From contig SVMK01000001.1 of NCBI GenBank assembly GCA_015067465.1, positions 1 through 64,000 of the forward strand: a stretch of 64,000 nucleotides of DNA. The letters run 5' to 3'. Numbering within the stretch: position 1 is the stretch's first letter; every line of letters starts with the position of its first letter. Positions 47,142 through 51,965 of the stretch are shown here, in pieces. Origin of the DNA: Oscillospiraceae bacterium (GTDB lineage Bacteria; Bacillota; Clostridia; Oscillospirales; Oscillospiraceae). The notes under the pieces are model-generated. The model made no database searches, was not told the DNA's origin, and worked only from the letters and a program-made list of their open reading frames with translations. The position numbers and the translations under genes are program-made.

Positions 47142-47786
47142 ATGACAAACCATACCACGGATCTGAATCCCGGCATGCCTGCGGAAAGCGGCGTGTGCGC
47201 GTGCATTTGCAGTGCGGCGGATGAGCTGACAACGGCGGCGAACGCCGTTGCCTCGTTTGCCGGGATGGCAAAAAAATATATCGACGATAAAGACCGGCTG
47301 CTCAAATGTCTGGATAAGCTGGAATCTTATGCCCTGCCGCTGAAAGAGCGGATCGGCGAGCTTGTGTCCGCCGCGGAATGTGAATGCGGCGCGGTGCAGT
47401 CCCGACCGGGAACAAGACGGATTCTGCTTGTGGAAGACAATGAGCTCAACCGCGAGATAGCAAAGGAGATTCTGGAGGAAAACGGCTTTGCGGTTGACGA
47501 AGCGGAGGATGGCTGTGCCGCGGTGCGCATGGTTTCCGCCGCACCGCCGACGCACTATGTCTGCGTTTTGATGGATATCAGCATGCCCGGAATGGACGGA
47601 CTGAGCGCAGCGCGGGAGATTCGCGCGCTGCAAACAGAAGATTACCGCGCGCTGCCCATCATCGCCATGACCGCGAACGAAGAACAGGAGGACATTCAGA
47701 AAACCTTTGCGGCAGGAATGAATGCGCATCTGAGCAAGCCCGTTCGGGTGGAAGTTCTGATGCGCACGCTGGAACAGTTTCTCTGA
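47142..47786 (+). CDS. Response-regulator protein with decayed HisKA-like N-terminal domain
   Basis: A 214-residue protein. Residues 92-214 are an intact REC domain (VEDNELNRE, phospho-acceptor Asp145 in LMDISMPGMDG, Lys in LSKP). Residues about 24-83 resemble the HisKA dimerisation helices of the hybrid kinase encoded 2.4 kb downstream: NAVASFAGMAKKYIDDK against NAIKGFSEMARKYIGEP, 13 of 26 core residues identical by eye. The phospho-accepting His is replaced by Asp27 (ADELTTAAN for SHDIRTPLN), and no ATPase domain is present. The REC domains are also closely alike, so the gene is probably a shrunken copy of such a kinase. GAGG precedes the ATG. Confidence 0.85.
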   Translation: MTNHTTDLNPGMPAESGVCACICSAADELTTAANAVASFAGMAKKYIDDKDRLLKCLDKLESYALPLKERIGELVSAAECECGAVQSRPGTRRILLVEDNELNREIAKEILEENGFAVDEAEDGCAAVRMVSAAPPTHYVCVLMDISMPGMDGLSAAREIRALQTEDYRALPIIAMTANEEQEDIQKTFAAGMNAHLSKPVRVEVLMRTLEQFL

Positions 47787-47831: not shown

Positions 47832-48920
47832 ATGAAAAACATTATTCTGGTAGTTGACGATGTGGAGCTGAACCGCGAAATTCTGGTGGAAATGCTGGAA
47901 GACGAATTTCGCGTTCTGGAAGCTGCAAACGGCGACGAGGCGCTGGCCCTTTTGCAGCAGCACTACAACGAAATCGAGGTAGTTCTGCTTGACCTTGTGA
48001 TGCCGAAGCTGGACGGAATTTCCGTTTTGAAATACATGAACGACCGCGGCTGGAACAAGAAGATCCCCGTTTTGATTATCAGCGGGGAAAACTCACAGAT
48101 TGTGGAAGCGGCCTGCTTTGAAGACGGAATTTACGACTTTATCCATAAGCCGTTTGAGCGAATGTATGTCAAGCGCCGCGTGATGAACGCCGCGGAACTT
48201 TATCGCTATAAAAACAGCCTTGAGGAAAAGGTTGCCGAACAGACGGAAGCGCTGCGCGCGCAAAATCAGCGTTTGGAGGAACTCAACAGCGACATTATCG
48301 AAAGTCTCAGCAACGTTGTGGAAGCGCGCAACCTTGAAAGCGGCCTGCATATCCGCCGCGTGAAGGGATTTACGAAAATTCTGACAGAGCGCGTAATGCG
48401 CGACTGGCCGGAATACGGCATAGACGAGGCGCGAAAAGAACTGATCGTGTCGGCCAGTGCGCTGCACGATATCGGCAAAATCATGATTCGCGACATCGTG
48501 CTGCTCAAGCCCGGCAGGCTGACAAAGGAAGAATTTGACGAAATCAAAACCCATACAACAAAAGGCTGCGAGATTATCCGCAATATGATGAAGGTGTGGG
48601 ATTCGGAGTATTTCAACTGCAGCTACAACATCTGCCGCCATCACCATGAGCGTTACGACGGCAAAGGCTACCCGGACGGACTGGCGGGGGATGCCATTCC
48701 CATTTCCGCGCAGATTGTTTCGCTTGCCGATGTTTACGATGCGCTTACCTCGGAGCGCATTTACAAGAAGGCCTATTCGTGCGACCGGGCCTACAACATG
48801 GTTGTGAACGGGGAATGCGGCGCATTTTCGCCGAAGTTGCTGTCGTGCTTTGCTGCCTGCAAAACGCAGATGGCCGACCTTGCAAAGCGACTGGCGGGAC
48901 AGCGGCCGTATCACGGCTGA
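47832..48920 (+). CDS. Response regulator with HD-GYP domain
   Basis: A 362-residue REC-coiled coil-HD-GYP protein. The REC domain (about residues 3-120) has the acidic pair VVDDVELNRE, acceptor Asp in LLDLVMPKLDG and HKP lysine. A coiled coil (about 130-160) leads to the HD-GYP domain, with HDIGKI and a complete HHERYDGKGYPDGL signature, so it is probably an active cyclic-di-GMP phosphodiesterase. No GGDEF cyclase gene lies in the window. It starts 45 nt after the preceding REC gene; ATG at 47832 chosen over an in-frame GTG six bases upstream. Confidence 0.92.
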   Translation: MKNIILVVDDVELNREILVEMLEDEFRVLEAANGDEALALLQQHYNEIEVVLLDLVMPKLDGISVLKYMNDRGWNKKIPVLIISGENSQIVEAACFEDGIYDFIHKPFERMYVKRRVMNAAELYRYKNSLEEKVAEQTEALRAQNQRLEELNSDIIESLSNVVEARNLESGLHIRRVKGFTKILTERVMRDWPEYGIDEARKELIVSASALHDIGKIMIRDIVLLKPGRLTKEEFDEIKTHTTKGCEIIRNMMKVWDSEYFNCSYNICRHHHERYDGKGYPDGLAGDAIPISAQIVSLADVYDALTSERIYKKAYSCDRAYNMVVNGECGAFSPKLLSCFAACKTQMADLAKRLAGQRPYHG

Positions 48921-48956: not shown

Positions 48957-49316
48957 ATGACTGTTCGTGATTTTTACGCCAATATCGGCGGCGACTATGA
49001 AGGAACGCTTGCCAATCTGCTTTCCGAGGATCGCATGAAGAAGTATATCCTCAAATTCGCTGATGCAAACGACTATACCAATTTGCTCGCCGCGCTCGAT
49101 GAGCAGCGCTATGAAGATGCGTTCAGATTTGCCCATAATATCAAGGGCGTTTGCCTCAATCTCGGCTTTTCCGTTCTGGCTGCGTCCGGCAGCGACCTGT
49201 GCGAAGCCCTGCGCGGCGGTGTGCCGACCGACGAGGTTCCCGCTTTGCTGGATAAGGTGACGGCTCATTACCGTCAACTGACGGCCGAACTGACACGTTT
49301 TCGCGACGAACTCTAA
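48957..49316 (+). CDS. Histidine phosphotransfer (Hpt) protein
   Basis: A 119-residue stand-alone Hpt domain. The phospho-accepting His60 lies in FRFAHNIKGVCLNLGF, followed by the helix with LAASGSDLCEALR. Such proteins shuttle phosphate between the REC of a hybrid kinase and free REC proteins. GGAGG lies 8 nt before the ATG. Placed between the two REC genes and the hybrid kinase, it completes a multi-step relay. Confidence 0.92.
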   Translation: MTVRDFYANIGGDYEGTLANLLSEDRMKKYILKFADANDYTNLLAALDEQRYEDAFRFAHNIKGVCLNLGFSVLAASGSDLCEALRGGVPTDEVPALLDKVTAHYRQLTAELTRFRDEL

Positions 49317-49340: not shown

Positions 49341-49395
49341 GCGCCGCGCTCCCGCATGTTATTTCCGCGTGTGGGGGTGCGGCGCCGTTTTTTTT
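49341..49395 (+). terminator. Intrinsic terminator after the Hpt gene
   Basis: GCGCCGC/GCGGCGC extended by about 10 further pairs including G-U, then eight T. It makes the hybrid kinase a separate transcription unit. Confidence 0.78.
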
Positions 49396-49468: not shown

Positions 49469-49538
49469 TATGGCTTAGGCAAATCATCGCATTAGTGCGA
49501 TGAACAAAACCTGTATTCTCGATTTCGGAGGGGCACGA

Positions 49539-51965
49539 ATGGCATTGCTGCAGAAATCCGATTTTACCGACAAAATCCTTGGACAGGCAAATATCGGCTT
49601 ATGGGCGATCGAACTGGAAGACGGCAGGGCATCGAGAATGTTTGCCGACGACACCATGCTCCGTCTGCTTGGCATTGACGAAGCGATGTCGCCCGAGGAT
49701 ACGTATGCCTTCTGGATCGACAGAATCGACCCGGATTACTGCACCTATGTGCAGGATGTGGTGGCCCGTGAAATCCGCGGAGAAAATGCCGAGGCGCACT
49801 ATTTCTGGAATCACCCGAAACGCGGCGCGATATATGTCCGCTGCGGCGGAATGCGCAACCCGGAGTACACGGAGTTTATCCGTCTGGAGGGCAGCCATCA
49901 GGATATTACGCCGATGCTGGCGCTTCAGGAGCGTCTGAAGCAGCAGGAGGAAAGCCTGCTTCGTTCCAAGCGCTTCTCGGATTACTTTCTGGACAGCTTT
50001 CTTTCTGCATATTATGTCAACCTTGAGGACGGAACGTTTCAGGTCATCCGTAAGAGCGGCGGCAACTTGGAGCGCTACGGTCATGAAAATTTTCAGGAAT
50101 TTATCAAAAACAAGGCGATTGACTGCATATCGGAAGATGAACGCGTGGGCATTCTGCGCCAGGTGACGCCGGAGAACATCCGCAAGCGCCTGCAGAAGGG
50201 CAACGAATTTTCCTTTGTGTTCCGCGATATTTTCTGCGGCGAAACCCGCCATGTGAAAATGCGCATTATCCGCGGCGCGGACGATGACCATGTTGCAGTC
50301 GGCTTTGAGGATGTGGAATCGCTGATGCGCGAGCGTCAGGTGCTGCGCGACAACCGCGCGAAGCTGCGTGAAGCATCGCTGATTGCTTCGCTGGCGGATG
50401 ACTACGAATTTATCGGCGTGGTGAACACCGAAAAAAACGAGATGACCGCTTACCGCATGGTGCCGAAGATTGCGGAACAGGTGAGCGATCTGGGCGAGGA
50501 CGCCACGGATATGGAGCGCTGGATGGCGTTTTGCGACCGCAGCGTTGTTCCGTCGGAGGCCGAGCATTTTTATTCGCATGTTGCCAAAGAGCGCGTTGAG
50601 GCGGAGCTGCAGAGCAAGCCGGTGTATATCTTCCAGACGAAGATGACCGTTGGCGGACGCGAGGGATACTACCGCTTCAAGTTTGCGCAGGATAAGAGCA
50701 ACAAAGCCCGCGTGATTGTGGGATTCCGTAATGTTGACCAGCAGGTGCTCAACGAGCGCAAAATGGTTGAGATGGAGAAAAAGCTGGAATACAGCAAGGA
50801 ACTGGAACGTGCGCTTGCCAAAGCCGAGGAGGCCAACCGGGCGAAGAGCACATTTCTGTTCAACATGAGCCATGATATCCGCACGCCGCTCAATGCGATC
50901 AAGGGTTTTTCCGAGATGGCGAGAAAATATATCGGCGAGCCGGAGCGGGCCGTGTCATGTCTGGACAAGGTGCTGGAGTCGGAGAAGTATCTGCTGTGTC
51001 TGATCGACGATGTGCTTGATTTGGCGCGCATTGAAAGCGGCAATATCCGGATTGAGTCCGCGCCGTTCAGCCTGAAGGCGCAGGGACAGTATTTCGACGT
51101 GCTGTTTGCGCAGGAAGCCGCGGCGAAACATATCGACTATTTCCATGAATATGTTGCGGTGCAAACCGACGCGGTGTGCGGCGATAAGCTCCACATCGAG
51201 CAGGTTTTGATCAATATTCTGAACAATGCGGTGAAATTTACGCCGGGTGGCGGCCAAATTGTGCTGACCACGCAGCAGCTTGATGATCTGCCGGACGGAC
51301 GTCACTGCTTCTGCTTTACCGTGCGCGACACCGGCATCGGCATGAGTCCGAAATTCCGCGAACACATTTTTGAGCAATTTGCCCGTGAACGCTCCTCCAC
51401 GGAAAGCGGCGTGCAGGGCACGGGGCTCGGTATGGCGATCACAAAGCATCTTGTTGAGCTGATGGACGGCAAAATCGAGATTGAAAGCGAAGTCGGCTGC
51501 GGCACAACGGTGCGTGTGTATCTGCCGCTTGCCCGCTGCGATGCCCTTGCCGCGGAGGAACCGGACGATGCACCGGCGGACGATTCGCTCGCCGGCAGGC
51601 GCGTTTTGGTTGTGGAGGACAACGAACTCAACTGCGAGATTGCGGTGGATATTCTGCAGGACGCTGGGCTGGTTGTGGAAACCGCGGAAAACGGCGTAAT
51701 CGCCGTGGAGCGGCTGCGTCTGCGCGGGCCGGGTTGGTATGACTTTGTTTTGATGGACATTCAGATGCCGGTGATGGATGGCTATGAGGCCACCAGAAGA
51801 ATCCGCCGGATGCCCGACGGCGGGGAGACGCTGCCGATTATCGCGCTGTCCGCCAATGCGTTTGAGGAGGACCGACAGCGCTCGGCGGAGGCGGGCATGA
51901 ACGGCCATGTGGCAAAGCCCATTAATGTTTCCGAACTGTTTGCGGTGCTGCGGTCGTTTCTGTAA
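49539..51965 (+). CDS. Hybrid sensor histidine kinase/response regulator
   Basis: An 808-residue cytoplasmic hybrid kinase with no transmembrane segment. A PAS-type domain (about 5-125) and further sensor regions (about 140-270 and 290-410) lead by a coiled coil to HisKA with His445 (MSHDIRTPLNAIKGF). HATPase_c follows (NILNNAVKFTPGGG; DTGIGM; GTGLGMAITKHLVELM), then a C-terminal REC domain (VEDNELN; acceptor Asp740; KPI). It would pass phosphate His445 to Asp740 to the Hpt His and on to the free REC proteins. ATG 49539 has GGAGGGG 6 nt upstream; an in-frame ATG at 49500 lacks one. Confidence 0.94.
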   Translation: MALLQKSDFTDKILGQANIGLWAIELEDGRASRMFADDTMLRLLGIDEAMSPEDTYAFWIDRIDPDYCTYVQDVVAREIRGENAEAHYFWNHPKRGAIYVRCGGMRNPEYTEFIRLEGSHQDITPMLALQERLKQQEESLLRSKRFSDYFLDSFLSAYYVNLEDGTFQVIRKSGGNLERYGHENFQEFIKNKAIDCISEDERVGILRQVTPENIRKRLQKGNEFSFVFRDIFCGETRHVKMRIIRGADDDHVAVGFEDVESLMRERQVLRDNRAKLREASLIASLADDYEFIGVVNTEKNEMTAYRMVPKIAEQVSDLGEDATDMERWMAFCDRSVVPSEAEHFYSHVAKERVEAELQSKPVYIFQTKMTVGGREGYYRFKFAQDKSNKARVIVGFRNVDQQVLNERKMVEMEKKLEYSKELERALAKAEEANRAKSTFLFNMSHDIRTPLNAIKGFSEMARKYIGEPERAVSCLDKVLESEKYLLCLIDDVLDLARIESGNIRIESAPFSLKAQGQYFDVLFAQEAAAKHIDYFHEYVAVQTDAVCGDKLHIEQVLINILNNAVKFTPGGGQIVLTTQQLDDLPDGRHCFCFTVRDTGIGMSPKFREHIFEQFARERSSTESGVQGTGLGMAITKHLVELMDGKIEIESEVGCGTTVRVYLPLARCDALAAEEPDDAPADDSLAGRRVLVVEDNELNCEIAVDILQDAGLVVETAENGVIAVERLRLRGPGWYDFVLMDIQMPVMDGYEATRRIRRMPDGGETLPIIALSANAFEEDRQRSAEAGMNGHVAKPINVSELFAVLRSFL

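Follow-up and report, generated by a model that had tools for sequence, protein, structure and literature searches.

A small signalling protein (214 residues) of a gut bacterium, a member of the Oscillospiraceae, is, by its sequence, a hybrid histidine kinase reduced to the DHp hairpin and the receiver, with the sensor region and the ATPase domain gone. Its gene occupies positions 47142..47786 of the forward strand in a stretch of 64,000 nucleotides (hereafter the window; positions 1-64,000 of the forward strand of contig SVMK01000001.1, assembly GCA_015067465.1, numbered from the first letter). The open reading frame starts with an ATG at 47142, just downstream of a GAGG Shine-Dalgarno motif, and from about residue 41 onwards its codon-position GC pattern resembles that of adjacent genes, residues 1-40 being less clear. 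The encoded protein, which we term pseudo-DHp-REC, consists of a degenerate HisKA/DHp helical hairpin (residues 17-83; 47190..47390, plus strand) and an intact receiver (REC) of the HHK, or intermediary, type (residues 92-214; 47415..47783, plus strand). Because the ATP-binding part and the phospho-accepting histidine are lost, whereas the hairpin and the receiver are kept, the protein probably works in a relay not as a kinase but as a brake or a buffer for phosphate.

Domain content and kinase origin of the hairpin

Pfam recognized a single domain in the protein, Response_reg (1e-26), bearing out the preliminary description of a protein without an ATPase domain. HATPase_c, or the CA domain, was likewise missing from an alignment (A2) of the protein with 29 kinase fragments, which sets it apart from hybrid histidine kinases; about 205 residues, corresponding to the ATPase domain, are absent between Gly83 and Ala84. 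Having no CA domain of any kind, it also differs from pseudo-histidine kinases of the DivL and RocA type, which combine a DHp with a degenerate CA domain, and the DHp-derived hairpin at its N-terminus distinguishes it from single-domain response regulators composed of REC only.

The DHp origin of the hairpin is argued from a resemblance that escapes curated profiles, since Pfam sees the receiver and neither HisKA nor HATPase_c. A profile search for HisKA over the N-terminus thus gave a divided answer. Residues 1-90 did not match Pfam HisKA (PF00512), failing the curated cut-off and not even reaching an E value of 1, a PF00512 search of the bacterium's own genome did not retrieve the protein, and a PDB sequence search with residues 1-90 returned a chance match only. 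A local profile built from 139 DHp domains, with the pseudo-DHp-REC protein left out, scored it at 15-18 bits, as compared to 5.7 for the best of 2000 shuffles, and ranked it just above every non-kinase among 6946 ORFs. When used alone as query against 5228 ORFs of the fetched loci, residues 15-91 aligned gaplessly to hybrid-kinase DHp domains and to nothing else (best E 4e-8; window kinase 1e-5), and the window kinase's DHp, taken as query in turn, recovered the protein at 9e-6. Over residues 33-60, 13 of 28 core positions are identical to the window kinase and 16 of 28 to a Ruminococcus kinase, MAKKYIDD being exactly common to both proteins in the latter comparison. Furthermore, a spliced DHp+REC consensus, made from kinases with the pseudo-DHp-REC protein not included, matched it as a single piece over consensus residues 12-204 (E 5e-52). 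At the level of sequence, the searches confirmed that the hairpin is DHp-derived and its likeness beyond chance, and the gapless alignment of residues 24-83 to the neighbouring HisKA domain, on which the preliminary description had relied, was reproduced in both search directions.

Structure prediction agreed with this assignment. Given the A2 alignment, AF2 predicted helices at residues 17-45 and 50-81 together with a confident REC (mean pLDDT 88); over residues 21-80 the pLDDT was about 78-97, in a monomer model whose DHp alignment rows come from kinases. Run on the sequence without an alignment, AF2 yielded nearly the same helices (17-43 and 50-82) at a useless confidence (pLDDT 38). Homology and the AF2 monomer together point to the antiparallel two-helix hairpin of HisKA domains, supporting the earlier suggestions that the N-terminus folds as such a hairpin and that the protein is a hybrid kinase stripped to dimerisation domain plus receiver.

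The active site of the receiver is complete, as in PF00072 members, with E98/D99, the phospho-acceptor D145, T177 and K199 (A2), and fold searches, informative for the receiver and not for the hairpin, returned REC matches throughout, the nearest structures being hybrid-kinase and CheY-type receivers. Its identity to Oscillospiraceae hybrid kinases ranges from 43 to 59%. The REC had been described as intact and very like that of the neighbouring kinase; it is intact, but it stands nearer to a kinase on the same contig of the own genome (C48:83095-86142, 59%) than to the neighbour (47%). This kinase is one of three hybrid histidine kinases close together at C48:83095-96489 (L227/L228).

Residues lost and kept in the hairpin

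The two domains have diverged to different extents. Identity of the REC to kinases (50%) equals that of kinases among themselves (50%), corresponding to the family rate, whereas for the DHp the respective values are 25% and 57%. Column 27 of A2, the phospho-His position, holds His in 22 of 22 clostridial kinases and Asp27 in the pseudo-DHp-REC protein (codon 47220..47222, plus strand), a replacement claimed at the outset and seen again in profile and multiple alignments, so that the H-box lacks the phospho-accepting His of HisKA members. The DIRTPL segment, likewise reported as lost, is indeed erased save for Thr31 (codon 47232..47234, plus strand), which occupies H+4, an invariant column in A2 and the phosphatase-determining position of HisKA proteins. 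Thr or Asn at H+4, as provided here by Thr31, is the one residue strictly needed for HisKA phosphatase activity, the His being dispensable (PMC3510030). The H+5 Pro of the kinases is replaced by Ala32, and loss of this Pro strongly hurt phosphatase activity in CrdS (PMC3510030).

Among the near-invariant columns, eight of nine are lost in the catalytic H-box half, only Thr31 being kept, as compared to five of seven kept in the lower half and loop and four of eight in the X region. Consensus residues are retained at 14 of 26 positions over residues 34-59, and 19 of 22 hydrophobic core columns are still hydrophobic (11.6 in shuffles, p 5e-5). Since the core is kept beyond shuffles and the decay is selective, the hairpin fold seems to be under continued selection. 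These numbers bear on the possible, though hardly probable, alternative that the protein is a plain accessory single-domain response regulator, all function residing in the REC and the DHp remnant doing no more than mediate dimerisation or persist passively. An intact REC diverging at the family rate beside a strongly diverged DHp would fit such a protein; the retention of core and lower-half residues beyond chance would not, nor would the persistence of Thr31 while other near-invariant H-box residues changed.

The hairpin also carries two cysteine clusters, CxCxC (Cys19, 21 and 23; window 47196-47210) atop helix 1 and CxC (Cys80 and 82; 47379-47387) ending helix 2, positions at which the kinases mostly have Ser/Phe and Ile/Ser. 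At the open ends of the two helices, which adjoin in a hairpin, the clusters are a possible metal or disulfide site.

Gene neighbourhood and relatives

The pseudo-DHp-REC gene is the first of an apparent operon on the plus strand. After a gap of 45 bases it is followed by the gene of a REC-HD-GYP response regulator, the probable co-transcribed partner (47832..48920), and then by that of an Hpt phosphotransfer protein (48957..49316; Pfam Hpt 3e-7), which is probably co-transcribed as well. A strong intrinsic terminator appears to end this three-gene unit (49341..49393, plus strand; 19-bp GC-rich stem and T8, fold -40.5 kcal/mol, z -5.8); an Rfam search of the operon region gave no match. Downstream, in an apparently separate transcription unit, lies the gene of a hybrid histidine kinase with intact DHp (SHDIRTPLNA), ATPase and REC (49500..51965, plus strand). 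Because the very strong terminator stands between the Hpt gene and the kinase, the four signalling genes do not form one simple operon, and this, together with a REC nearer to another kinase, weakens the initial idea of a damping or docking subunit reserved for the neighbouring kinase. The pairing with the adjacent Hpt is itself a guess from gene order, as the genome contains 15 HisKA and five Hpt matches.

The apparently separate transcription unit of the kinase also counts against mixed dimers, in which the pseudo-DHp would join the DHp of a hybrid kinase, whether the neighbour or another one, and block or bias the autophosphorylation of that kinase. With whole-hairpin identity to own-genome kinases of only 26-30%, we consider such pairing unlikely, even though the lower bundle is the best-kept part of the hairpin (residues 33-60 and 34-59, see above) and the pseudokinase RocA interacts with CovS (PMC7028121).

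In its own genome the protein has no full-length match but itself, and orthologs were found in none of 60 relatives, 300 family, 394 order and 245 class genomes, the larger searches scoring only part of the first-look candidates per genome, so that weak relatives may be missed. Taken over about 1970 genome searches, the protein occurs in one genome only, and it is absent from the two congeners examined. In 245 Clostridia genomes, the spliced query yielded no other match over both domains at the E 5e-52 level. At 20 HD-GYP loci of the family, which mostly include an Hpt gene and often a hybrid kinase, no DHp-REC protein was present, and the same REC form beside Hpt/HD-GYP genes was thus not seen again at these loci. 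A 1373-residue HD-GYP open frame at L195:7727-11845 (G102) begins with a REC-HD-GYP unit close to that of the window.

Restriction to one genome would be expected of a functionless gene, decaying or newly formed, that arose from a duplicated hybrid kinase by internal deletion. This explanation is very improbable in light of the open frame with its Shine-Dalgarno motif, the leading position in the operon, the intact REC active site and the selective retention of residues; moreover, the genome holds no near-identical parent (best REC 59%), from which it follows that the gene is old. Scarcely credible is a hairpin of other descent resembling DHp by convergence, since, despite the failure of Pfam HisKA to reach the E 1 level, the gapless two-way matches are to DHp only, 0 of 2000 shuffles attained the score, the alignment extends across the loop as far as the E-x-G end, and the hairpin is fused to an HHK-type REC.

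The spliced query revealed, among the 300 family genomes, a second pseudo-DHp-REC protein in a genome of another genus (G178; L246:8458-9519, minus strand, and also L253:1501-2562, minus strand). This protein of about 293 residues has the architecture HTH-pseudoDHp-REC, is encoded divergently from an adjacent Hpt gene and reads KDLRTELNSAVGYTEL where kinases have HDIRTPMNAIIGFTEL, the His being replaced by Lys and the Thr kept. Pfam placed HTH_26 and the receiver above cut-off and HisKA below threshold (0.009), while the local DHp profile gave 18 bits, a score that no shuffle approached; the protein is a singleton in its genus (29 genomes). A Blautia contig (CAMNGN010000026.1; L083:1-771) encodes a probable HTH-DHp-REC protein without ATPase, cut at its 5' side by the contig end, with an intact SHDIRTPL motif (Pfam HisKA 1e-8; HTH judged by eye), and a query of this type found no match at E 1e-33 in 391 class genomes. 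Short frames at L247-L251, considered as further cases, were ruled out as split or truncated kinases. In a tree of 128 receivers, a common origin of the window, G178 and Blautia proteins was neither favoured nor rejected (AU p 0.45), the REC being short.

Given these related forms, the pseudo-DHp-REC protein of the window is not unique: DHp-REC proteins without ATPase recur, and position 27 is not conserved among them, with Lys in G178 and His in Blautia. A functional Asp27 therefore finds no support in an ortholog, in the independent G178 analogue or in the Blautia protein. The initial remark that no described family of this form was known has to be qualified by the related forms and by the kinase-inhibiting single-domain receivers already described (PMC9430884).

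Proposed role and comparison with known systems

Domain origin, residues lost and retained, gene order and the terminator-like hairpin are the observations from which we derive a functional proposal. The pseudo-DHp-REC protein may well be a catalytically dead accessory regulator of the Hpt-HD-GYP relay, acting as phosphate buffer or sink, phosphatase or damper. Histidine kinases without CA domain and His do not autophosphorylate; as the ATPase (CA) domain is gone and the phospho-His is Asp, the pseudo-DHp-REC protein should be unable to do so. In HisKA kinases the lower bundle sets dimerisation and REC docking, and HHK receivers are intermediary by nature. Dimerisation of the DHp hairpin has probably been preserved, and the hairpin would continue to present, beneath the former active site, a surface on which a REC can dock; the receiver would pass phosphate to and from an Hpt, with that of the operon as the likeliest partner. 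In this manner, the protein could compete for and drain the phosphate supply of the HD-GYP regulator, possibly helped by residual HisKA-type phosphatase chemistry via Thr31, by which the hairpin may dephosphorylate docked receivers. The expected outcome would be damped c-di-GMP breakdown by the HD-GYP protein. By likeness, the proposal gains support from the G178 protein, which also adjoins an Hpt gene. A dead, probably dimeric accessory damper is favoured by several precedents, namely the H+4-dependent phosphatase activity of HisKA proteins (PMC3510030), the CA-less HK853 that dephosphorylates its regulator (as reported in PMC7005713), kinase inhibition by the single-domain receivers Osp and FixT, acting on CckA and FixL, respectively (PMC9430884), and the Rec-only MrrA, which shuttles phosphate (PMC9981736).

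Kinase-inhibiting receivers and pseudokinases are known already; the variant here is a CA-less pseudo-DHp fused to an intact REC, with a function that we infer. If the proposal holds, a hybrid kinase has become, through excision of its ATPase, an element devoted to negative control, and the kinase role of a DHp has been separated in nature from its phosphatase and docking roles, as has been done by laboratory mutagenesis. Tentatively, CA-less pseudo-DHp-REC proteins might even constitute a recurrent, unrecognized class of relay brakes in gut Clostridia. On this view, hybrid kinases would time and again have been pared down to a receiver and a hairpin for docking and phosphatase action (with the His lost and Thr retained at H+4), in association with Hpt genes. 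The two cysteine clusters of the window protein (Cys19/21/23 and Cys80/82) might provide a further input, through metal or redox. Such a class would be easily overlooked, since curated profiles label proteins of this kind plain response regulators.

Compared to the Oscillospiraceae hybrid kinases (HisKA-HATPase_c-REC), DHp hairpin, linker and REC of the window protein are collinear and homologous, whereas sensor and ATPase are missing, His is changed to Asp and the H-box is erased but for Thr31. In relays of the RpfC/RpfG type, a hybrid kinase and an Hpt feed an HD-GYP regulator. The window similarly brings together genes for a hybrid kinase, an Hpt and a REC-HD-GYP protein; it differs in having the Hpt as a protein of its own and in possessing an additional, dead DHp-REC protein. 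DivL is not known as a DHp-REC protein. As pseudokinases, DivL and RocA (PMC9430884, PMC7028121) share with the window protein the descent from kinases and the lack of kinase activity, and RocA is CA-independent when overexpressed, a version truncated before the CA domain complementing a rocA mutant (PMC7028121); unlike the window protein, RocA is built with a membrane sensor part and a degenerate CA domain and lacks a REC. Like Osp and FixT (PMC9430884), the window protein carries a receiver without a kinase and would be expected to influence a kinase relay, but these receivers have no DHp, and Osp lacks some REC active-site residues that are intact here. Further counterparts are the G178 and Blautia proteins, which differ by an upstream HTH and by Lys or a kept His, respectively, at the phospho-His position, and in which, as in the window protein, a DHp with Thr at H+4 is joined to an HHK-type REC without an intervening ATPase.
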